Shown piece after piece: positions 1,384 to 25,415 of a stretch of 31,000 nt of DNA. The DNA is taken from positions 1 to 31,000 of the IMG/VR virus record IMGVR_UViG_3300040801_002856; one strand, given 5' to 3'. Below the pieces are notes generated by a model that searched no databases, was not told where the DNA came from, and saw nothing but the letters and a program-made list of their open reading frames with translations. Both the position numbers and the translations under genes were made by a program. Origin of the DNA: a virus. The stretch's first letter is position 1. Each line of letters begins with the position of its first letter.

Positions 1384-2808
1384 ATGGAATCAATTTCTAC
1401 ACTTAAGTCCTTACAATATGACTCACTAACTGGTGATGTTGTTTTAGTTGATGGGAAAGACTGTTCTTGTATTGGGACATCTTTTGCTGTGGAAAATCCG
1501 GGGAAAGTATATACTCTTAATTTTAGTAGAACAGTTGAAGCTGCCACGGTCCAAATTCACTTACTGGGAGAAAAAACTAAGTTGATATTTCCCGAGAGTA
1601 TTGAATATACAAGTAATTCGGCAATAATAACATTTCACAAGGAAATGACTGATCCCATCAGATTAACTGCAATATACGCTTGTGAGATAGAGTCTGGTAA
1701 TTTACCAAACCCAACACCAACACAGACTCCAACACAAACCCCAGCACAAACACCAACCAATACGCCTACGCCTACGCCAACTGCTACGGTTACACCTACC
1801 CCCACGGTTACTCCCACTAGGCCGTTCCCGTCACCGACATTGGAAGTTACCGCCACCCCAACCCCTACAATAGGAGTGACCGCCACCCCAACCGCCACAG
1901 TCACGCCTACGCCCACAGTCACGCCTACGGTGACCCCTACTGGTACTGACTTAGGAATTACCCCATCGCCCACACCAACACTAACACCTACACCTACGTC
2001 AATTGATACTGGAGAAAATATAGCTGGGCTGACCGTGCACCTTGATGCGTCTAATACAGATAAAATGCTTCAGGCAGGTGATATACCACTGGGCCCCAAT
2101 CCTGTGTCCGGTACTGAATTTATAAAGTGGGCGGATAATAATGACTCTTCTATAGGGGAATATTTCAAAAAAGCTACGCAGTCATATGTAGTGTTATATG
2201 ATAATGACGGCAATAGACGAATTCGAATATCATCTAGCGCCCAAGATGAAGAGGGAGTTTATTATAATTCTTCAGATACCCCTGTACGTGCAGTTACCCA
2301 AGATGAGGTAACAATATTCGCGGTGGCCGCTGGGGGCGCTGGCTTTGGTACATCATTTAGGCCGGTTTTTTCAACATCTGACAGTAATTTTGGGGGAGGC
2401 TATGGAGTCGCAGTTTCATCATCTTCTGTCCCGCAAACCCTAGCTAATGCAATTACCACTACGAACGTATCAACGTCACTAGTTGAGAGTTCAGCAACGG
2501 GTGAATTTTTAGGGTTTGTGTCTCCGAGTATCACACCGTTAATAGTATCAATGAGGGCTACAGGCAGTAGTGGAGTGGCTGAGATGTGGAAGGACACAGT
2601 GCTTGATGACACCGAACCACTAACTGTTGGTAACTACTATAATGCCATTTCAGGGGCCAGTATACTTGGTAGAATTTTTGATTTTAACTCTCCCGGAACG
2701 GATGTTTATCTTTACAAATTATATGTTTATGATAGGGCATTAACCGATCCTGAAATGGCGACAGTCCACAATGAATTACTATTTAAATACGGGGATATAA
2801 TCGCTTAA
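1384..2808 (+). CDS. Fibre-like virion protein: N-terminal domain, Thr/Pro stalk, lectin-like C-terminal domain
   Basis: 474 residues in three parts. Residues 1-108 form a compact domain starting [18 protein letters not shown]. Residues ~108-207 are a [12 protein letters not shown] linker containing [13 protein letters not shown], the same insert as in the upstream protein. Residues ~210-474 start [14 protein letters not shown] and end [20 protein letters not shown], a pattern common in concanavalin A/LamG-like jelly-roll domains of phage and marine bacterial proteins. A sugar-binding, receptor-recognition role is inferred from that pattern. The ATG is preceded by AGGGGA. A CATAAATA string at 1367-1374 overlaps the previous stop codon and may be chance. 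Confidence 0.75.
1704..2003 (+). repeat. Thr/Pro-coding repeat array, second copy
   Basis: In-frame Thr/Pro linker of the 474-residue protein. It shares a 29-base block (1825-1853) that is identical to 247-275 in the preceding gene. This points to recombination or copying between the two arrays. Confidence 0.85.
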
Positions 2809-2844: not shown

Positions 2845-3633
2845 ATGAAAGTAGGTGGAGTAGAATTAGCGGGTGGTAAAATTGTCGATCTTACAATTGA
2901 CTCCGTAAGCATACCCCCAACATTTGATCCTAGTGATAAGGGGGAGTTCACTCTTAGCGATAGTGACGGAGTTCTGCGTTTTAATACAGGCTCAGGACTT
3001 GTCTCATTAACCAGTAGTGTATCAGAAAACCCAAACCTAATAGAATCACTCGGCTCAGAATGGCTCAATAGTGATTTATCATTTAACCCAGTACCATTTA
3101 ATTCTCTACCTATTTTATCGGGCTTAACTAACACCGATAGTCTTTATAATGTAATAGTGCAAATTACTGAAGCTATTGAAGATCAAAGTACCGTGGATAC
3201 AACTCAATTGCTTGCTCCACCCGGAACGGCTGACTTAAACGTTCTAGCCCATCTTGGTGGTGATGTTTTATTCCTCCCGTTCGAAGTTATTGTTGCTGGT
3301 AGTTCGATAACATTGGATTTTAATAACTTAGAAGGATTTGATATTGGCAGAAATGACGATATTCAGGGGAATATGTTAGTGTTTAATGACGTAGGTAATC
3401 TGGTTTCGGTCAATGTTAGTTACACTTACACTAATTTCACAGCTAACGCGACGCACGTAGTGAATCACAACTTAAATGAAAAGTATGTTTCTGTGTTCTG
3501 TATTGATCCAAGCACGGACGAATGGATTCAGCCTGACTCAATATCCTATATTACTGAGAATCAATTGCTAATAACACTGGATTCATCCAGACCATTAATA
3601 GCTAATGTTACAAACTTCAGCCACGATTCTTAA
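2845..3633 (+). CDS. Putative virion appendage protein
   Basis: 262 residues, not assigned to a family. The N-terminal half is Ser/Asp-rich and beta-like (KVGGVELAGGKIVDLTID). The C-terminal ~75 residues contain THVVNHNLNEKYVSVFCIDP and end near SRPLIANVTNF. A His-Asn-Leu strand motif followed by a V.V.D segment recurs in C-terminal domains of marine phage fibre and appendage proteins. It is the third of three consecutive plus-strand fibre-like genes but has its own late promoter. Its stop codon overlaps the thyA stop by the palindrome TTAA (3630-3633). No membrane segment or catalytic motif is visible. Confidence 0.6.
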   Translation: MKVGGVELAGGKIVDLTIDSVSIPPTFDPSDKGEFTLSDSDGVLRFNTGSGLVSLTSSVSENPNLIESLGSEWLNSDLSFNPVPFNSLPILSGLTNTDSLYNVIVQITEAIEDQSTVDTTQLLAPPGTADLNVLAHLGGDVLFLPFEVIVAGSSITLDFNNLEGFDIGRNDDIQGNMLVFNDVGNLVSVNVSYTYTNFTANATHVVNHNLNEKYVSVFCIDPSTDEWIQPDSISYITENQLLITLDSSRPLIANVTNFSHDS

Positions 3634-4493
3634 GCAGAAAATGGGAATTTTATAGCTGGGTGATGGTCGTAGTTCACGATCTCAAAATCTTCATGGGTAA
3701 CCCAAGTCTCTATATCCTCTAATGTTTTTATGTTTTTATTCATCACTAGTCGCGGAGGATTGTACGGCTCCCGCTTTATCTGCTCCTTAATGAGATCGAT
3801 CTGGTCTTCGTAAATATGAGCGTCCACCATAAAATGGGTTAGCACTCCGGGAGACATTCCGGTTATTTGACAGACAATTAGTAATAACAAGGAGTAACTG
3901 GCTATGTTCATAGGAGTCCCGAGAGGTAAATCGTTTGACCGCTGATCCATTGTCAAATCAAGATATTCTCCGCGAATACTAAACTGGTATTTTGTGTGAC
4001 ATGGGGGTAGGGCCATCTCATCTAACTCGCCCGGATTCCAGTGATTAACAATTAAGCGTCTATTGTCATCTCTTTCAGATATTTTATCCAAAACATTCTT
4101 CAGTTGATCCACAACCTCACCATCCTTACTGACCCATGACCTAGCTTGTACCCCGTAAATCCGCCCTAAATCATCTTCACCCTTACGATTTGGGTTTTCC
4201 AGCCAATGCTTTGATGTATTGGCATTTTCGTTCCAAAAATTACAACCTAATTCCCTAAAATCCTTCGCATTATCTACACCCCTAATGAATCCTAGAAGCT
4301 CCCCGATCATGGGCTTAATAAGTAATTTTTTAGTGGTCAGGGCAGGGAATTCTCCGTATGATAGGTTGTACTTAGCCATTGCCCCATGAAGGGTTAGACA
4401 TCCCTTACCTGTTCTCTTATTATATTTCATAAATCCATTATCTAGGACATCACGAACTAGACCTGAATAGGTCTCATCGAAAGGATTCTTCAT
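3630..4493 (-). CDS. thyA: Thymidylate synthase (ThyA/Td)
   Basis: 287 residues; makes dTMP from dUMP using methylene-tetrahydrofolate. The active-site motif ALPPCHTKYQF carries the nucleophile Cys165. QRSNDLPLGTPMNIASY carries Asn196, which reads the dUMP base; dCMP hydroxymethylases usually have Asp here, so dUMP is the expected substrate. DAHIYEDQ gives the His/Tyr pair that binds the nucleotide sugar, DDNRRLIVNHWNPGEL fits the phosphate-binding and conserved Trp regions, and the C-terminus HHPAIKFPFSA matches the family's closing tail. The usual QWR after YG is QAR here. The ATG has an AAGGA site inside the end of the preceding frame, so it is probably translated with the small membrane-protein gene upstream. 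Confidence 0.96.
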   Translation of the reverse strand: MKNPFDETYSGLVRDVLDNGFMKYNKRTGKGCLTLHGAMAKYNLSYGEFPALTTKKLLIKPMIGELLGFIRGVDNAKDFRELGCNFWNENANTSKHWLENPNRKGEDDLGRIYGVQARSWVSKDGEVVDQLKNVLDKISERDDNRRLIVNHWNPGELDEMALPPCHTKYQFSIRGEYLDLTMDQRSNDLPLGTPMNIASYSLLLLIVCQITGMSPGVLTHFMVDAHIYEDQIDLIKEQIKREPYNPPRLVMNKNIKTLEDIETWVTHEDFEIVNYDHHPAIKFPFSA

Positions 4494-4496
4494 TAA

Positions 4497-4810
4497 TTAT
4501 TCCTTGTTTTTAAAATTATAATTTTCTCTACCGACAAGGTAGTAGTCCATCTGGGATAATTCCCTTACACATTCTTCTTCAAGTTCCGGACAATGGCGCT
4601 TAACTTCTTGAACGCATTTTTCATCACCGTCAGGACATAATTCTGACAGCGCCCCATTATCCGAAGTTATTTTGGGTCGTTGCCCTCATCGTACTTGTCT
4701 TTCCAGAACATTACAAAATTTCTGAATCCATCAAGTCCACGCTTAAATGTTTCAGGGAAAAATACAGCGACAGCTAAAGTGGCCGCAACACCAAGTAAAA
4801 AGTTTAACAT
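4497..4810 (-). CDS. Predicted -1 frameshift fusion: small membrane protein plus Cys-rich acidic extension
   Basis: The zero-frame ORF (4810 to 4667) has ATG with GGAG and encodes 47 residues: an N-terminal membrane helix (LNFLLGVAATLAVAVFF) and an amphipathic tail ending GNDPK. Its last sense codons form CCCAAAA (4676-4670), a canonical X XXY YYZ slippery site directly before the TAA stop. Slipping back one base opens a frame to 4497 that adds 57 residues (start ITSDNG), with four Cys spaced 6, 7 and 6 apart (LCPDGDEKC and HCPELEEEC), giving 104 residues. The added frame has no ATG before residue 41 of its 57 and ends 3 bases before thyA. Alternatives are a single-base sequencing or assembly error, or a natural mutation. 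Function is unknown. Confidence 0.5.
4627..4676 (-). promoter_or_regulatory. Candidate frameshift signal: CCCAAAA plus downstream stem-loop
   Basis: Slippery heptamer at 4676-4670 in the correct phase (GAC CCA AAA TAA). A 7-bp stem follows, CTGTCAG (4649-4643) with CTGACGG (4633-4627), around a 9-base loop; two further outer pairs are possible. The spacer is 18-20 bases, longer than the usual 5-9, so the stem may not be the stimulator. Confidence 0.4.
4667..4810 (-). CDS. Small single-pass membrane protein (zero-frame product)
   Basis: 47 residues, MLNFLLGVAATL at the start and KDKYDEGNDPK at the end. One hydrophobic helix covers residues ~2-18; the rest is a basic/aromatic amphipathic stretch (TFKRGLDGFRNFVMFWKDKY). 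The ATG at 4810-4808 has GGAG about 7 bases upstream and a TATAAATA late box at 4840-4847. This is the product made without frameshifting. Its size and location next to late genes would also fit a small lysis or envelope protein, but no family was recognised. Confidence 0.65.
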   Translation of the reverse strand: MLNFLLGVAATLAVAVFFPETFKRGLDGFRNFVMFWKDKYDEGNDPK

Positions 4811-4839
4811 GTTAAATCTCCATAGTAAAGGTTCAAGAT

Positions 4840-4847
4840 TATTTATA
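4840..4847 (-). promoter_or_regulatory. T4-type late promoter box TATAAATA
   Basis: Exact late-promoter core on the minus strand, about 30 bases upstream of the small membrane-protein ATG. It probably drives that gene and thyA. Confidence 0.6.
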
Positions 4848-4946: not shown

Positions 4947-6137
4947 ATGAGTTCAGCCAGTGGCCCAAATGACACAATGAATGTTCAAGTAAAAGGACAT
5001 GTATTGGTTCGTGATGAAACCAATGATAAAGTATTGCTAGATAAAGATAATGCCATACATCCACAGAATATGGCAAGAATTTTAGCTAGAGGATTAGCAA
5101 ATGAAGATAATTCAACAATATTCCGCATGGCATTTGGGAATGGGGGTACGTTTGTTGATGCTGGCTCTAATATTGTATTTAACCCACCTAATGATGGTTC
5201 AATTTCTGGGTGGGAATCTAGACTGTATAATGAAATATACTCCGAAATAGTGGACGAAACCGATCCAGATTTCGGCATAGACCCCGGTTCATCGGGCCCT
5301 AACGTTATACGACCCGGTGGGGGCAGTTCCCCCGGCAATGACCCCGGTGGCGGAGGCGTTGTTTCTCAGGAGGTTGGTTTAAAGTCCAACACTATAGTTA
5401 CCGTTTTCCTAAACGAAAGTGAACCTTCAGGACAAGATTCAAGCATCTTAGACCCATCAGATAATACTTTCATCTTTGATGAAATTGGACTGTATAGTCC
5501 GGGCAAAAATGCTGTTCCTACTGCCGGGGTTACCAGTATTAACGTTGGTGATAAAGATTCGGAGGATCAATCCCCATTAACCCCAAGCAGCAATTTGGTT
5601 ATAGGGCTAACGGTAGACGGGTCTACGTATGGTGCCACAATATCCATCCCCGCTTCGGGTACTGGAGCCTTAGGTCAGATTACATATGGTGATCTTTGTG
5701 AGGGAATCAATACCGGCTCATGGATTACTTCTGGTGATCCTATAAACGATTTTATATACCTTTACATTACTGACCGGTCTGGGGGGTCTTATCCTAGTAT
5801 AACCGGCAGGCAGTCATTTGGCCTATTGACATTCCAGAGTAAGACTGTTGGTTCCGATTCAAGTGTTTCGGTAGATTGCGATAGTGGTAACCTTACCGAT
5901 TTTGGTAACGTATTAAGTGAGGGTATTTGTGCTAACGTAAATGTTTCTCAAGTAGACGGGGATATTGCGGGCTCTCAAAATGATATAAGTAATACTACCA
6001 ATGAAAGGGAGCGACTACTTAGTCATATAATCTTTGCGCCAATTCCTAAAGCACAAGACGTAGCACTATCAATTACTTATACCTTAACTATTTCGGTATG
6101 CACTACATCTGATGCTATAGTTGACGTTATAAATTAA
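4947..6137 (+). CDS. Putative virion structural protein with Gly/Pro hinge
   Basis: 396 residues, family not named. The N-terminal ~110 residues (VQVKGHVLVRDETNDKVLL, NMARILARGLANEDN, FRMAFGNGGTFVD) look like a compact attachment domain. Residues ~112-140 form a flexible Gly/Pro/Ser hinge (PGSSGPNVIRPGGGSS and DPGGGGVVSQ). The rest is beta-rich and ends with a hydrophobic strand (SITYTLTISVCTTSDAIV). No catalytic motif is visible. The ATG has AGGAG about 7 bases upstream and a late-promoter variant further up. It converges on the glycosyltransferase operon, sharing TTAA at 6134-6137. A baseplate or fibre role is inferred from neighbours and composition only. Confidence 0.55.
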   Translation: MSSASGPNDTMNVQVKGHVLVRDETNDKVLLDKDNAIHPQNMARILARGLANEDNSTIFRMAFGNGGTFVDAGSNIVFNPPNDGSISGWESRLYNEIYSEIVDETDPDFGIDPGSSGPNVIRPGGGSSPGNDPGGGGVVSQEVGLKSNTIVTVFLNESEPSGQDSSILDPSDNTFIFDEIGLYSPGKNAVPTAGVTSINVGDKDSEDQSPLTPSSNLVIGLTVDGSTYGATISIPASGTGALGQITYGDLCEGINTGSWITSGDPINDFIYLYITDRSGGSYPSITGRQSFGLLTFQSKTVGSDSSVSVDCDSGNLTDFGNVLSEGICANVNVSQVDGDIAGSQNDISNTTNERERLLSHIIFAPIPKAQDVALSITYTLTISVCTTSDAIVDVIN

Positions 6138-7783
6138 TTATATTCGTTTTCTTTTCTGTTTTCTTTGCCGTAATGATAGCGACGATAATGGGTGATGGGA
6201 CTGGCAAGGAGGCACCCGGCTTTAACTTTACCCTTCCTCATAAGTTCCATAACAAAACTCATCCATGTCTGTTCGTACTTGTGCTCAAATTTTGTATCTA
6301 GAAACACCTTTCTATTGCCCTCATGGTTGAACAAAATGGGCCAATTACAATAGTGATACTCACCTACTGCGTAAGATGTTTTATTATATGAACCAGTGTA
6401 AAATATCTCCACCTTTTTAGGATCACTGCGTTTATCAGTTGGCTGGAACCACCTCTCCTTCTTATCCTGTGGAACATTATACCATGCCCAATTGTCATGG
6501 TTATCGCCAAAATACTCAGAAAAGCAAAGTTTTAAATAATCCAATGCCTCGGATTGCATTATATCCATTGACTGCTGAAACAATGCCGGGAGATACATGT
6601 TCATTCCATTTTTACACAGTTTCCCTTTAGAATCACTACATGATAACAACATATCATCTTCAAAAAACACCATATATCTATTTGAGCTTTCGGCAAAATG
6701 TTCGGCAGCAAATTGTCTTGCCCCACAAATTCCAATGTTATCAAACTTTATTTCTTCAAAACCATAAGTTTCAAATAACTTAGCGTATTCTTCTTCTACC
6801 TCTGGATCGTTCGAATTATTAATAACATATTTTGATACATTATCTTTCATACCCTCCTCTAAATTAGATTCAAACTTATCCACCCAAATTTTGAATTGTT
6901 TAGGGAGATTATATGTTAACACATAAATCGCTAAATCCTTTTCATATGTTTTAATCTCCATATTCTGCAATTCTTCTAAAAATTTGTAAACCAGACCATT
7001 AGGTTCAATCATATGCTTAGTGCAAAGATTAGGGTTTGTGTAAGTAATAAGAGTGAATATGGACTCTTCTGTGCCCATATAGCCCGAAGCTAGTGTGTCA
7101 TTAAGGGTAGTATAATAAACATTGTTTATATTGCACAGGGCATCTTTACTGCCACCAAATATACCTCCTCTCGCTACATATTCCGTCTTCTGGCCAGCGG
7201 CACGGTAAAACGCTTCCTTTTCAAACCCGTGAATCTCAGTGGCAGGCTCGTAGGGAAAACACAGATAGTGCATTCGGTTATCCGAAAAAATTTCCGCTAT
7301 CTTTTCACCGAAGTGCTCATCCATATATCCGGGAGGGTCGCCTATGGTGTTAGCTATACCGGCATCAATCCACATAAAATATTTTGTATCGAAGAAGTTA
7401 TGAATTGAAGCATCGTTCATGAAGAACTGTTTGCTCATAACTAGCGGATTATACAATTCAAGTTTAGCCTGTGGACTTTCCGCCAACCAAGTTGCTCTAC
7501 TGTACCATTCTTCATTAGTCCTTAATTGTTGCACTTTGTCGTAAAATGGAAATTGTTTAAGATCATCCAGTTCCTTCGTTATGATTCGGGTTTTTTTACC
7601 CAATCTCCTATCATTTATGAACCCGGTAAGCTCAGCAGGAGCGAATATCACCATGGGATAATCTACTTTTAGTAATTTATCAAAACATTCAAGATAATGG
7701 TCGAACCCTCGACTAAAGCCATCATCTAGGTCCCCGCGACCTAAATCAAAAAGCGCTGTAACTAGTGTAAGTTGATCTTTCAT
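6134..7783 (-). CDS. Two-domain protein: HtrL/YibB-like N-terminus, GT-A-like glycosyltransferase C-terminus
   Basis: 549 residues. Residues 1-270 match the HtrL/YibB pattern: LTLVTALFDLGRGD at the start, YNPLVMSKQFFMND (~111-124) and FMWIDAGIAN (~136-145), the WIDAG block being the family hallmark. Residues ~285-549 start DLAIYVLTYNLPKQF and contain MVFFEDDMLL (~371-380), an acidic D.D-type motif like the metal/nucleotide-sugar site of GT-A enzymes; the remainder has many Trp, Tyr and His. Transfer of a sugar is inferred; donor and acceptor are unknown. The start ATGA overlaps the stop of the upstream gene by 4 bases, so translation is coupled. It is last in a three-gene operon. Confidence 0.7.
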   Translation of the reverse strand: MKDQLTLVTALFDLGRGDLDDGFSRGFDHYLECFDKLLKVDYPMVIFAPAELTGFINDRRLGKKTRIITKELDDLKQFPFYDKVQQLRTNEEWYSRATWLAESPQAKLELYNPLVMSKQFFMNDASIHNFFDTKYFMWIDAGIANTIGDPPGYMDEHFGEKIAEIFSDNRMHYLCFPYEPATEIHGFEKEAFYRAAGQKTEYVARGGIFGGSKDALCNINNVYYTTLNDTLASGYMGTEESIFTLITYTNPNLCTKHMIEPNGLVYKFLEELQNMEIKTYEKDLAIYVLTYNLPKQFKIWVDKFESNLEEGMKDNVSKYVINNSNDPEVEEEYAKLFETYGFEEIKFDNIGICGARQFAAEHFAESSNRYMVFFEDDMLLSCSDSKGKLCKNGMNMYLPALFQQSMDIMQSEALDYLKLCFSEYFGDNHDNWAWYNVPQDKKERWFQPTDKRSDPKKVEIFYTGSYNKTSYAVGEYHYCNWPILFNHEGNRKVFLDTKFEHKYEQTWMSFVMELMRKGKVKAGCLLASPITHYRRYHYGKENRKENEYN

Positions 7784-8682: not shown

Positions 8683-10056
8683 TTACTCCACGACTTTTGT
8701 AATTTTATTTAGCCATCCTTTAGATGTACTGTGGGGCCATACTGTGAATGTTTTCGGTATTCTATTTGATAAGAATATCAAACGGTAATCAACCCATTCA
8801 TTCTTTAGATGGTTCTTAAGCTCACTACCTGATAAATCCTTCCGATAAATTTCATCATCACTATCATCATGTGCTCCAACATAACAAAAATCATAGTCAT
8901 CAACTTCTTCCGTTATTTCGTTCTTATGGAATATAATTCTTACGTCATTGGACCTACAAAATGACTCTCTCCACTCTTCTTCGTTTTCATATTCGTAGTT
9001 ATTTGGTGGCGGCTCTCTATCCAGCGTCTTCTGCTGTACTCCTCTATATTTAAAACTGATTCCCGCATATTCTTCATATTCACGAAGAGTTCTTTCCGTT
9101 CCGAAACCATATTTTCCGAAATCGATTTGATTGGGGTCTTCCCCATCCATCCCAAAAAGAATTCTGTTTCTTCGATGGCACAAGTCATTACGCTCAACCC
9201 AGTCAAGTTTAACATTTCCTTTATTCTTCTCTGGGGTGGTATGATCATCCCAAATCTTAGTTCTACCCTTTCTGGTATATTCATGCCATGCAATAACTTT
9301 ATGAGGGTGGAATAAGTCGTATCCGTGAGTGAACGCCCGTACAGCTAATGATATTTCTTCACCATGGAAAAAATATTCCGGATCATGCTGTACATTTACA
9401 GCAAAGTCTCCGTCTACAAAACAAAAATGTGCCGAGAAAAATCTAGCGGGTAATGGTTCTTGTCTATCTTCCCAGTCCTCCATGGTTGAAGGAAGGAAGA
9501 ATACCGCACCCTCGGGAATGAACCGGTCAAAGTCCATTTTCCAAGGAACTCTTACTCGGGCCTTTGGATCATTTTCGGGATCAAATGAAGGTATATACCC
9601 CGTCAATAGCGGTTTGGGATATTCTTCGGACCTTATACCCTCTAGCATATTAACACAAAGAGCGTCCCAATCAGGTACAAACCTGTGATGAGAATCTAAC
9701 TGTAAAGTGTAGTCTTCCCCATCATACATTTGCTGAATGAGATGCCGTGCCCAACAAGCTCCCTTTGTATTGTTAAAGTGAACGTCAAGTATGGTAATTC
9801 TTGCCCCACCCTTGGTCGCATTAATAATAGATGTTACATGTTCATGGTCATATAATTCAGAATAATCTTCCTCAAATCCCAGAACGTCGAATCCATCATC
9901 CAAAAATTGCTCTAGAGTCTCATCATCGCCGTGCTGCCATGCAATGCATACATGTAACCCTTCAGGATTTTTAGCATGGTTAATAAGATCATTAACGGTA
10001 TTGAGTAATTCAGGGTCCCTATAGCTTGCTATTTGCACAAATATGCTGTACATCAA
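8683..10056 (-). CDS. GlcNAc-type glycosyltransferase (PF11397-like)
   Basis: 457 residues. The N-terminus IFVQIASYRDPELLNTVNDL is the typical opening of this family, related to Skp1 GlcNAc-transferases. YTLQLDSHHRFVPDWD (~116-131) has the expected D.H metal/nucleotide-sugar motif, and FFHGEEISLAVRAFTHGYDL and VIAWHEY follow as in relatives. The C-terminal ~100 residues are less conserved. Expected role: transfer of an N-acetylhexosamine-like sugar, with acceptor unknown (virion protein, DNA or host polysaccharide). It is first in the three-gene operon, with AAGGAG about 8 bases before the ATG; no late-promoter box is seen, only a TATAAT-like string near 10077-10084 just downstream of the previous gene's terminator. 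Confidence 0.75.
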   Translation of the reverse strand: MMYSIFVQIASYRDPELLNTVNDLINHAKNPEGLHVCIAWQHGDDETLEQFLDDGFDVLGFEEDYSELYDHEHVTSIINATKGGARITILDVHFNNTKGACWARHLIQQMYDGEDYTLQLDSHHRFVPDWDALCVNMLEGIRSEEYPKPLLTGYIPSFDPENDPKARVRVPWKMDFDRFIPEGAVFFLPSTMEDWEDRQEPLPARFFSAHFCFVDGDFAVNVQHDPEYFFHGEEISLAVRAFTHGYDLFHPHKVIAWHEYTRKGRTKIWDDHTTPEKNKGNVKLDWVERNDLCHRRNRILFGMDGEDPNQIDFGKYGFGTERTLREYEEYAGISFKYRGVQQKTLDREPPPNNYEYENEEEWRESFCRSNDVRIIFHKNEITEEVDDYDFCYVGAHDDSDDEIYRKDLSGSELKNHLKNEWVDYRLIFLSNRIPKTFTVWPHSTSKGWLNKITKVVE

Positions 10057-23094: not shown

Positions 23095-23814
23095 ATGAGA
23101 TTCAAAGAGTATTTACTTGAAAAAGTTGACAATTTTGTAAATGAAGCTGATGTAGTACTACATCAAATAATTAGTAACGTTGACGATTCGCACGTTGACT
23201 ACTCAAAAGAGCGGCTAGATTTTAATGTCGGGACTATGGTAAAGCGTTCGGATTACTTCCGTCTTTACCTCACAATCCTAAATGGGGAATCTTATGATTG
23301 TAGATTAGCGCGTAACAATCAACGCGATGGTTTCACTATTGTTATAACCACTGATTCATTTCCTGCCAGAAAAGAAATAGATTCATTTTTATCCACTAAA
23401 AATGTTTACGGGGATGTTAAAGAGCATATCATAAAATATGTTTCGGAATATAAAGAAGATGTGGAGGGCATTTACACGACTTACGAAGAAGTTAAATCTA
23501 TCAATACTCCTGAAAAGTTTGATGATGTATATGATGAAGCCGTGGCCGAAATTAAAAAACGAATTGAAGAATTCAATGAAATATCTGCCGACATGGAAGA
23601 AAAAATGGAAACCACCGCAAATGAAGTGGAGCGTGAGTCTCTTGTTCGCGGTGTTGAAAAACTAAAGGATGAATACTTCGGAACAACCTTTAAGAAGTTC
23701 AAGCGCATCGTAGCTGATATAGTAGATATCGACTTAACCCGATTCGATAAAGAGTATAAACGTAAGTGGGATGCTAGACTTGAAGACTTCTATGAAAATA
23801 TCGTCAAGCTTTAA
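23095..23814 (+). CDS. Unknown helical protein inserted between tube and sheath genes
   Basis: 239 residues, no recognised family. The N-terminus MRFKEYLLEKVDNFVNEA resembles the 'M..FkEyLlE' opening seen in many T4-like virion proteins, sometimes a head-targeting or cleaved leader; that link is tentative. Residues ~45-115 are mixed, and ~130-239 are long charged helices (DEAVAEIKKRIEEFNEISAD, VERESLVRGVEKLKDEYF), probably coiled coil. It lies on the opposite strand from its tail-gene neighbours. Its stop overlaps that of the homing endonuclease by TTAA (23811-23814). Confidence 0.6.
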   Translation: MRFKEYLLEKVDNFVNEADVVLHQIISNVDDSHVDYSKERLDFNVGTMVKRSDYFRLYLTILNGESYDCRLARNNQRDGFTIVITTDSFPARKEIDSFLSTKNVYGDVKEHIIKYVSEYKEDVEGIYTTYEEVKSINTPEKFDDVYDEAVAEIKKRIEEFNEISADMEEKMETTANEVERESLVRGVEKLKDEYFGTTFKKFKRIVADIVDIDLTRFDKEYKRKWDARLEDFYENIVKL

Positions 23815-25415
23815 GGGGTATAAATCCATTTAGTTGATCCACAATCCCAGATTCTAAGGTACCCTTCTTTAAGCCTATTCTCATACTCGGTTAGGTTGGG
23901 GTCATCGTTATCATTTTTCCTCAAACTGTAACGATGAATTCTTTTCAGTTCGTTACAGTAGAAGTACCAATAATTGGGGGGAGTTTGGTGGGAAAAATCA
24001 AATCCCAAAGTTTTATATAGATTGCCGTCACTCCATCTACAATCGGCATAAGATATAACCGACTTAGGATTAACGTCATTCAAAAATTTTTTAAAAAGTT
24101 TGGAGGCACCCCCAACAACAGTATGGTCTAATTTGTGGCAGAATCGGTTTATTTCCCAACCTAAGATATTTCTAGATTTATTTTCCTTTGAAAAAGTCAT
24201 AACCGAAATCAATTTTCCCTCATAAAACAGACCAAGTCTATAATTACTACGGCCTGATCCCTGTATGTGGTTTTCTTTTAAGAATTTATTGGCTTTTTTA
24301 CTTGAAGTTTCTAAAATTTCACAATTTCTTGCATATACCCGCTTAGGACATTTACCCAGTATGTTTCTGATTCTACTCTTAACTATTTCTTTATTATTGA
24401 TCCACTCGTCTTCGAAAATTATGTAAAGTTTGACCCCGGCCTCTCTCGCCATTTTCATTTTATAATTATCAAAGGCTTTATGCCTACCCACAGCTTTATT
24501 TTGTTCTTCGCTGTGCCAATACAGTCCGGAGTACTCGAATCCAATGTTTTCATCTGGTAGGTAAACGTCGATTTCAAGTGGGTAAATCTTTGTTCTATTA
24601 TTCGGTATTGCGGACGGACACAATTCATTTATAAACTCATAAAGTTCATTTTCCCCCTTTGATCTTGTTATTTTCTTAGGGTAACATGTTGGACACATTT
24701 CTTCGGAATATTTACAGTCATTAAAATATTGCCTGCTAATGGCAAATTCGATATGGCATTTGTTACATTTTAATTTTAGTTTATTTTCATAAACATCATT
24801 TAAAAGTGTTAAATTAGTTTCCTCAATTAGCTTGGATACTCGTTGTGCTGCAACTATTGATCTTCGTTTATTTTCCTTTCGCAGTGCCTCCGCTTGCCTT
24901 TTTCTACCTTCTTCGGTTTTGGGGCCGCTGAGATGATCTAAGCTATAACCATTTTTCGCCTTTGTTATCCAAGATTTTTTTGCGCGAGCGGAAAGTTCTT
25001 CGTGATTTTTTTCAGCATAAGCCTTAACCGATTCAGATATTTTATTTTTAGTATCCTCATCAACTGGGCCATATTCCCTTCTTTCTAGTTTCCCTGAATT
25101 ATATTTTTCTTCTCTTCTTTTAACAGCTTCACGTATTGACTCCAATCCTTCTTTTGAATATTCCCCAACTCTGCCTTGAATACCTTTACGATTTTCAGAA
25201 ATTTTTTTCTTTACATCCTCACTATGCCTTTTTCCATACATGTGATTATTTTTTCCCGATCTTTTTTTAGATAATGCTTCTCTGTATTCAATTGATGTAA
25301 GGGCGTCTTCACCGAACCTTTTCTTGTATTCGGCAGTAGTACTCCCGTGTACCTTCAAGTGTGAATTGGTTATTTGTGTTTTAAATTCTCTTTTACAGAT
25401 TTGACATTTAATCAT
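23811..25415 (-). CDS. Free-standing homing endonuclease (EDxHD/Vsr-like) with zinc finger and NUMOD-like repeats
   Basis: 534 residues. N-terminal C2H2 finger: Cys4, Cys7, His19, His23 (IKCQICKREF ... HLKVHG). NUMOD3-like DNA-binding unit GKNNHMYGKRHSEDVKKKIS (~54-73). Lys/Glu-rich linker to ~190. Zinc ribbon: Cys217, 220, 241, 244. Nuclease: YPLEIDVYLPDENIGFEYSG then LYWHSEEQ (Glu281, Asp283, Glu294, His301), the pattern of EDxHD homing enzymes related to Vsr. The C-terminal part (RLGLFYEGKLISVMTFSK) is also typical of this group. It should cut an intronless allele of a neighbouring gene and spread by repair. Located between gp18 and gp19 with its own sigma70-type promoter. Intact and probably functional. 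Confidence 0.85.
   Translation of the reverse strand: MIKCQICKREFKTQITNSHLKVHGSTTAEYKKRFGEDALTSIEYREALSKKRSGKNNHMYGKRHSEDVKKKISENRKGIQGRVGEYSKEGLESIREAVKRREEKYNSGKLERREYGPVDEDTKNKISESVKAYAEKNHEELSARAKKSWITKAKNGYSLDHLSGPKTEEGRKRQAEALRKENKRRSIVAAQRVSKLIEETNLTLLNDVYENKLKLKCNKCHIEFAISRQYFNDCKYSEEMCPTCYPKKITRSKGENELYEFINELCPSAIPNNRTKIYPLEIDVYLPDENIGFEYSGLYWHSEEQNKAVGRHKAFDNYKMKMAREAGVKLYIIFEDEWINNKEIVKSRIRNILGKCPKRVYARNCEILETSSKKANKFLKENHIQGSGRSNYRLGLFYEGKLISVMTFSKENKSRNILGWEINRFCHKLDHTVVGGASKLFKKFLNDVNPKSVISYADCRWSDGNLYKTLGFDFSHQTPPNYWYFYCNELKRIHRYSLRKNDNDDPNLTEYENRLKEGYLRIWDCGSTKWIYTP

Follow-up and report, generated by a model that had tools for sequence, protein, structure and literature searches.

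The question raised by positions 4497 to 4810 of the window (by which we mean the whole 31,000-nucleotide stretch of IMG/VR record IMGVR_UViG_3300040801_002856 analysed here) is whether a short membrane-protein frame, ORF1, and the open frame that follows it, ORF2, both on the minus strand just upstream of thyA, are one gene or two. A first-pass annotation had proposed that a programmed -1 ribosomal frameshift joins them. Our analysis supports this reading through a conserved slip site, the relation of the two frames, the coding character of ORF2 and RNA structure, and we put at about 0.88 the probability that ORF1 and ORF2 form a single gene decoded by programmed -1 frameshifting, as judged from sequence.

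Gene order and source phage

The window represents part of a jumbo phage genome. Xanthomonas phage XacN1 and Stenotrophomonas phages RAS14 and CM1 are relatives, the tail sheath comparing at 60-64% and the DNA polymerase at about 41%. In these phages the divergent neighbour genes are present and the thyA cassette is absent from this place, their ThyA being encoded elsewhere and distant. A tail-sheath alignment provided 80 IMG/VR loci, whose records were searched for ORF2; it was found directly 5' of thyA in G035 (IMGVR_UViG_3300040801_002079, 316.8 kb), and a third lineage, G052/G053, was found with a DNA pattern for QMDYYLVG. The order ORF1-ORF2-thyA is shared by these three divergent lineages, and the same two genes flank the cassette on either side in the window, G035 and G052.

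ORF1 (4667..4810, minus strand, as are all features below unless stated) is the 0-frame gene of a 47-residue membrane protein with a single transmembrane (TM) segment, and has homologues in G035 and G052. The hydrophobic segment covers residues 2-18 (4757..4807; Kyte-Doolittle, 17-residue window), with a hydropathy peak of 2.3-2.5 at residue 2 in the window, G035 and G052. A Shine-Dalgarno (SD) sequence, GGAG, is found at normal spacing (4818..4821; best anti-SD pairing -6.4 kcal/mol) and, 29 nt 5' of ORF1, a box resembling the T4 late promoter, TATAAATA (4840..4847), whose distance from the ATG of ORF1 is 26-29 nt in each of the three lineages. The window contains five copies of TATAAATA for 3.7 expected, so that only the conserved position is informative; the other T4 late promoter-like boxes are at 2810 (plus strand), 11715, 20512 and 22376 (minus strand). 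Late-type transcription from such boxes is established for T4, and by analogy the box before ORF1 suggests transcription of the same type.

Downstream, thyA (3630..4493) encodes a thymidylate synthase of 287 residues (Pfam PF00303, E 5.4e-87; phrog_160, E 7.7e-101). Its SD sequence, AAGGA (4501..4505; -5.4 kcal/mol, normal spacing), is embedded in the end of ORF2, and only the triplet TTA separates the ORF2 stop from the thyA ATG at 4493.

Other genes of the window include a 474-residue protein with a long Thr-Pro repeat (TPTPTPT...) and no Pfam match (1384-2808, plus strand), and an HNH/homing endonuclease gene immediately 3' of the tail sheath gene (23811-25415, minus strand). An HtrL_YibB-like protein (6134-7783) and a GlcNAc glycosyltransferase (8683-10056), both on the minus strand, have at the matching place in XacN1 a similar run that includes annotated glycosyl- and carbamoyltransferases.

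The junction between the two frames

ORF1 ends with GAC CCA AAA TAA, and the heptamer CCCAAAA (4676..4670) stands in the phase C_CCA_AAA, abutting the TAA at 4667-4669. As the first-pass annotation had described, the -1 frame past this heptamer is open for 57 codons, to a TAA at 4499..4497; this frame, ORF2 (4497..4670), encodes two cysteine pairs spaced CX6C-X7-CX6C and a SQMDYYLVGREN domain. It has no early start of its own, ATG, GTG and TTG all being absent before codon 41, which is itself inside the SQMDYYLVG segment.

An open -1 frame is in itself common, since 9 of 26 window genes have one extending at least 54 codons beyond their stop, and the case for ORF2 therefore rests on its coding signal and its conservation. 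Measured against the codon usage of the phage, ORF2 reaches 0.22 bits/codon in the -1 frame, all five remaining frames being negative, and ORF1 reaches 0.27 bits/codon in its own frame. The heptamer is far less commonplace. Among 641 gene ends, taken from ORFs of at least 150 residues in the same phage group, none has XXXAAAA before the stop and a single one has any XXXYYYZ motif there. Where a gene ends with an in-frame AAA, X_XXA precedes it in only 2-3% of cases, per lineage. The window was picked for its motif, and the independent tests are the G035 and G052 lineages, whose two junctions would arise together by chance with a probability of about 6e-4 (the product of the per-lineage chances). 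Slippage of the transcribing polymerase was considered as well and ruled out, the longest homopolymer at the slip site being 4 A for about 8 or more needed for polymerase realignment.

Conservation of the split in relatives

Both other lineages that bear ORF1 are split in the same manner, ORF2 again occupying the -1 frame, and each keeps a slippery heptamer in the right phase at the stop, built from other nucleotides: the 49-residue ORF1 of G035 ends with TCG GGA AAA TAG (G_GGA_AAA), the 44-residue ORF1 of G052/G053 with GAT TTA AAA TAA (T_TTA_AAA). The ORF1 proteins have in common M1, G7, P19, F22, V33, K37 and the final Lys. The ORF2 products of the relatives are 53-58% identical to that of the window, with the four cysteines and LSQMDYYLVGRENYN invariant, and the distance from the slip site to the first cysteine is equal in all three lineages, with no indel. 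Furthermore, in G052 the sequence TTT AAA is flanked immediately 5' by a TGA in the -1 frame and immediately 3' by the 0-frame TAA, so any -1 shift there must fall on the heptamer. Read in the -1 frame, ORF2 has an excess of substitutions in the third codon position: the figures for positions 1/2/3 are 17/12/31 when the window is compared with G035, and 22/12/29 and 16/11/26 in further counts. By these comparisons ORF2 is under coding constraint in the -1 frame.

A single metagenomic record such as the window could hold a sequencing or assembly error in CCCAAAA, or the split could be that of a decaying gene. These explanations have a negligible probability: the same split occurs with different nucleotides in G035 and G052/G053, ORF2 retains its codon bias and third-position excess, and an error would need to have recurred identically in three independently assembled lineages.

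In G052/G053 (L129:2334-3380, minus strand), ORF2 continues in frame through ThyA, the two making one frame of 349 codons behind ORF1 and T_TTA_AAA followed by TAA. From its sequence, this frame could possibly be expressed by frameshifting as a membrane-anchored thymidylate synthase.

Searches beyond these lineages returned no further case. No related sequence was found among isolated phages by tblastn with the 104-residue fusion, ORF1 or ORF2; 8-mer searches of IMG/VR with the fusion and the DNA polymerase gave no matches; and neither a wider ThyA search nor a scan for the cysteine pattern added any ORF1-ORF2 pair. A family of small phage proteins of unknown function, phrog_28977, matches ORF2 with E 0.0096 over 24 residues only. 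Several candidates were discarded: a match in AhaSv, apparently a small helix-turn-helix-type protein, devoid of the Cys pairs and of QMDYYLVG, was set aside as a coincidence; a locus retrieved with the QMDYYLVG DNA pattern (L126) was out of context; a Pseudomonas contig, the lone match in the genome collection, was attributed to chance; and so were ORF1 profile matches in G026, XacN1, RAS14 and G043 (E 0.02-0.1).

RNA elements around the slip site

The first-pass annotation had noticed a stem-loop at a long spacing of 18-20 nt from the heptamer. The stem-loop is present, and folding places it at 4626..4652; its spacer, however, fits this inner hairpin only, which is enclosed by an outer stem starting 4-5 nt past the heptamer. 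The 5' arm of the outer stem (4654..4665, beginning 4 nt past the heptamer, core pairs 4664-4655) pairs with a 3' arm located in the codons for R-H-C-P-E (4585..4596, pairing with 4665-4654), and the whole forms a branched structure (4585..4665) with a consensus shared with G035. For the 93 nt that follow the heptamer, the folding energy is -31.8 kcal/mol (z -4.25) for the window and, for G035, -39.1 kcal/mol (z -6.23), in each case the lowest of 130 folding windows within +/-600 nt. Permuting synonymous codons gave an equally good fold in 11 of 500 trials for the window and in 0 of 500 for G035. The ten core pairs of the outer stem have probabilities of 0.94-1.00 in contexts of up to 400 nt.

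The stem is in the same register in the window and G035 (columns 6-15 with 75-84), with 10/10 pairs kept through two double changes (C-G to G-C and A-U to G-C) and two one-sided ones (both U-G to C-G), while sliding the stem partner leaves 30-50% paired. A pair-shuffle control gave 117/500, a comparison of two sequences only and thus of little power. In G052 the outer stem was sought by folding and is absent.

On the 5' side, an SD-like GAGG (4684..4687; -6.1 kcal/mol with the anti-SD) precedes the second base of the motif by 8 nt. In known bacterial -1 signals, an SD-like element lies 6-17 nt upstream of the motif and a hairpin, either simple or branched, begins 4-10 nt past it (PMC4066793); the GAGG falls within the first of these ranges. 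G052 has an SD-like AAGGA about 12 nt upstream of its heptamer, its AGGA preceding the second base of the motif by 13 nt, and for G035 anti-SD pairing revealed none at 6-17 nt upstream of the motif. At least one stimulator fits the published rules in every lineage, the stem in the window and G035 and the SD-like sequence in the window and G052.

A strong stem between ORF1 and a thyA gene that has its own SD might instead serve mRNA stability, attenuation of thyA or termination, leaving frameshifting a minor role. This is very improbable: the stem lies within the coding ORF2 at a position fixed relative to the heptamer, and Rfam recognised no family on the minus strand, its sole match (E 0.11) falling beyond the stem and on the opposite, plus strand.

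The same region bears on whether ORF2 is a separate cistron, translated by coupled reinitiation after termination of ORF1, with the heptamer incidental. The start codon would then be ATG in the case of G052 and TTG in that of G035, with the window using CTG or some other non-AUG codon. The ATG of G052 is indeed 4 nt past the stop, the TTG of G035 has a weak GGGG SD (-5.0 kcal/mol), and relatives without ORF1 begin the domain at an ATG of its own. Against this, the window has no ATG, GTG or TTG to offer, just a CTG touched by an SD-like run, and the region sits within the stem with a pairing probability of about 1; in both the window and G035, the nearest ATGs past the stop belong to the 0 frame and would give short, unrelated peptides. 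Moreover, reinitiation leaves unexplained the three slippery heptamers and the indel-free spacing. Since G052 has no stem and an ATG 4 nt after the stop, reinitiation is possible there; we hold it to be credible in G052 and not credible in the window, and improbable as the explanation of the locus as a whole.

Proposed decoding

We favour programmed frameshifting, in which most ribosomes would stop at the TAA and release the 47-residue single-TM peptide, and a fraction would slip into the -1 frame, the pairing changing from C_CCA_AAA to CCC_AAA. The branched stem, beginning 4-5 nt further on, would hold the ribosome during the slip, possibly aided by the upstream GAGG, and shifted ribosomes would read 57 more codons to make a protein of 104 residues, in which a membrane anchor is joined to an acidic domain with the cysteines and QMDYYLVG. 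In the window, the residues that follow the TM segment of ORF1 are basic, so this domain would be cytoplasmic by the positive-inside rule. Both the occurrence and the frequency of slippage are what we infer, and the evidence comes from three known lineages, the stem being common to two of them only. A passage of PMC4066793 citing earlier work gives G_GGA_AAA as inefficient in E. coli, so frameshifting efficiency may be low.

Possible relationship with thymidylate synthase

Elsewhere among relatives of the jumbo phage group, the Cys/QMDYYLVG domain occurs without ORF1, as an N-terminal fusion to ThyA (G011 at locus L122, G022/G023/G027 at L125, G030 at L120, G021 at L121, and L132). This Cys-rich QMDYYLVG[RKQ]E extension of phage ThyA is beyond Pfam coverage and was seen only in relatives of the group. 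A short ORF found 5' of thyA in L117 (G014), MNRVSPKYLLHKYCEGDPDCERF..., has a Cys pair close to its beginning and may be a diverged form of ORF2 that starts at an ATG of its own and has no ORF1.

Gene fusion in relatives suggests a functional partnership. We tentatively propose, at somewhat less than an even chance, that the ORF2 domain is a partner of ThyA and that ThyA, or a complex containing it, is anchored at the membrane through the long form. More speculatively still, the phage might set the membrane-anchored fraction of ThyA, or of its companion domain, through a slip abutting the stop, the shift in G052 giving a TM-Cys domain-ThyA enzyme. It could equally be, again short of even odds, that frameshifting is real and yields a long product with no relation to ThyA, a protein of the virion or of membrane redox reactions, thyA being merely the next gene of a late operon. 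The late-type TATAAATA box upstream in three lineages, the richness of the domain in cysteine and the conservation of the adjoining divergent genes without thyA in XacN1 and RAS14 are in keeping with such a role; against it stands the fusion of this domain to ThyA in several relatives. The structure model of ORF2 is of low confidence (pLDDT 65) and had no match in the PDB, and in an ORF2-ThyA model the N-terminal part is poorly ordered, so that no docking is claimed.

Significance and comparison with known systems

The mechanism is known in kind; the gene family was not found in the databases searched or in our literature library, and neither was a frameshift-made anchor beside a ThyA-fused domain. 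Standard gene callers would report a 47-residue orphan and miss the remainder. With a slippery triplet that varies by lineage (CCC, GGG, TTT) and a stem that has changed with compensation, the locus lets one ask, as a clean natural experiment, which features of a bacterial -1 signal located at a stop codon are maintained by selection. Should the long form bind ThyA, the locus would provide a direct and testable example of a dNTP-synthesis enzyme that a phage tethers to the membrane.

A close likeness in signal is to the -1 frameshifting of the bacterial IS3 family, and especially of IS911 (PMC4066793, PMC5009743), whose signal comprises an SD, a heptamer and a three-way-junction stem (PMC5009743). 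Common to both are an X_XXZ_ZZN heptamer, a branched stem a few nucleotides downstream and an SD-like sequence upstream, the latter here in two of three lineages. Unlike in these elements, no transposase is encoded here, the slip abuts the stop, a domain is added to a membrane peptide and X varies by lineage. In dnaX, a minority of bacteria have a 0-frame stop directly after the shift site (PMC5009743), and the arrangement is alike in having a heptamer beside a termination signal, stem and SD stimulators, and two products with a common N terminus; the proteins are unrelated, however, and the E. coli dnaX shift yields the shorter form.

The lambda G/GT tail assembly chaperone is likewise a phage gene with a minor -1 product carrying an extra C-terminal domain. 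The present gene is not a tail gene, no Pfam or PHROG tail match being found at ORF1/ORF2, and it adjoins thyA upstream instead of lying between the major tail protein and the tape measure. Among annotated frameshift genes of SEA-PHAGES, 2397 of 2476 are tail chaperones (PMC10885494). The frameshift proposed here, which is conserved and affects the gene of a small membrane protein with a link to nucleotide metabolism, would depart from this overwhelming majority. Finally, the ThyA proteins with an N-terminal Cys/QMDYYLVG extension (G011, G022, G030, G021 and L132) contain the homologous domain and are encoded at the same locus beside the same divergent neighbour gene, but in one continuous frame, with neither membrane anchor nor frameshift.
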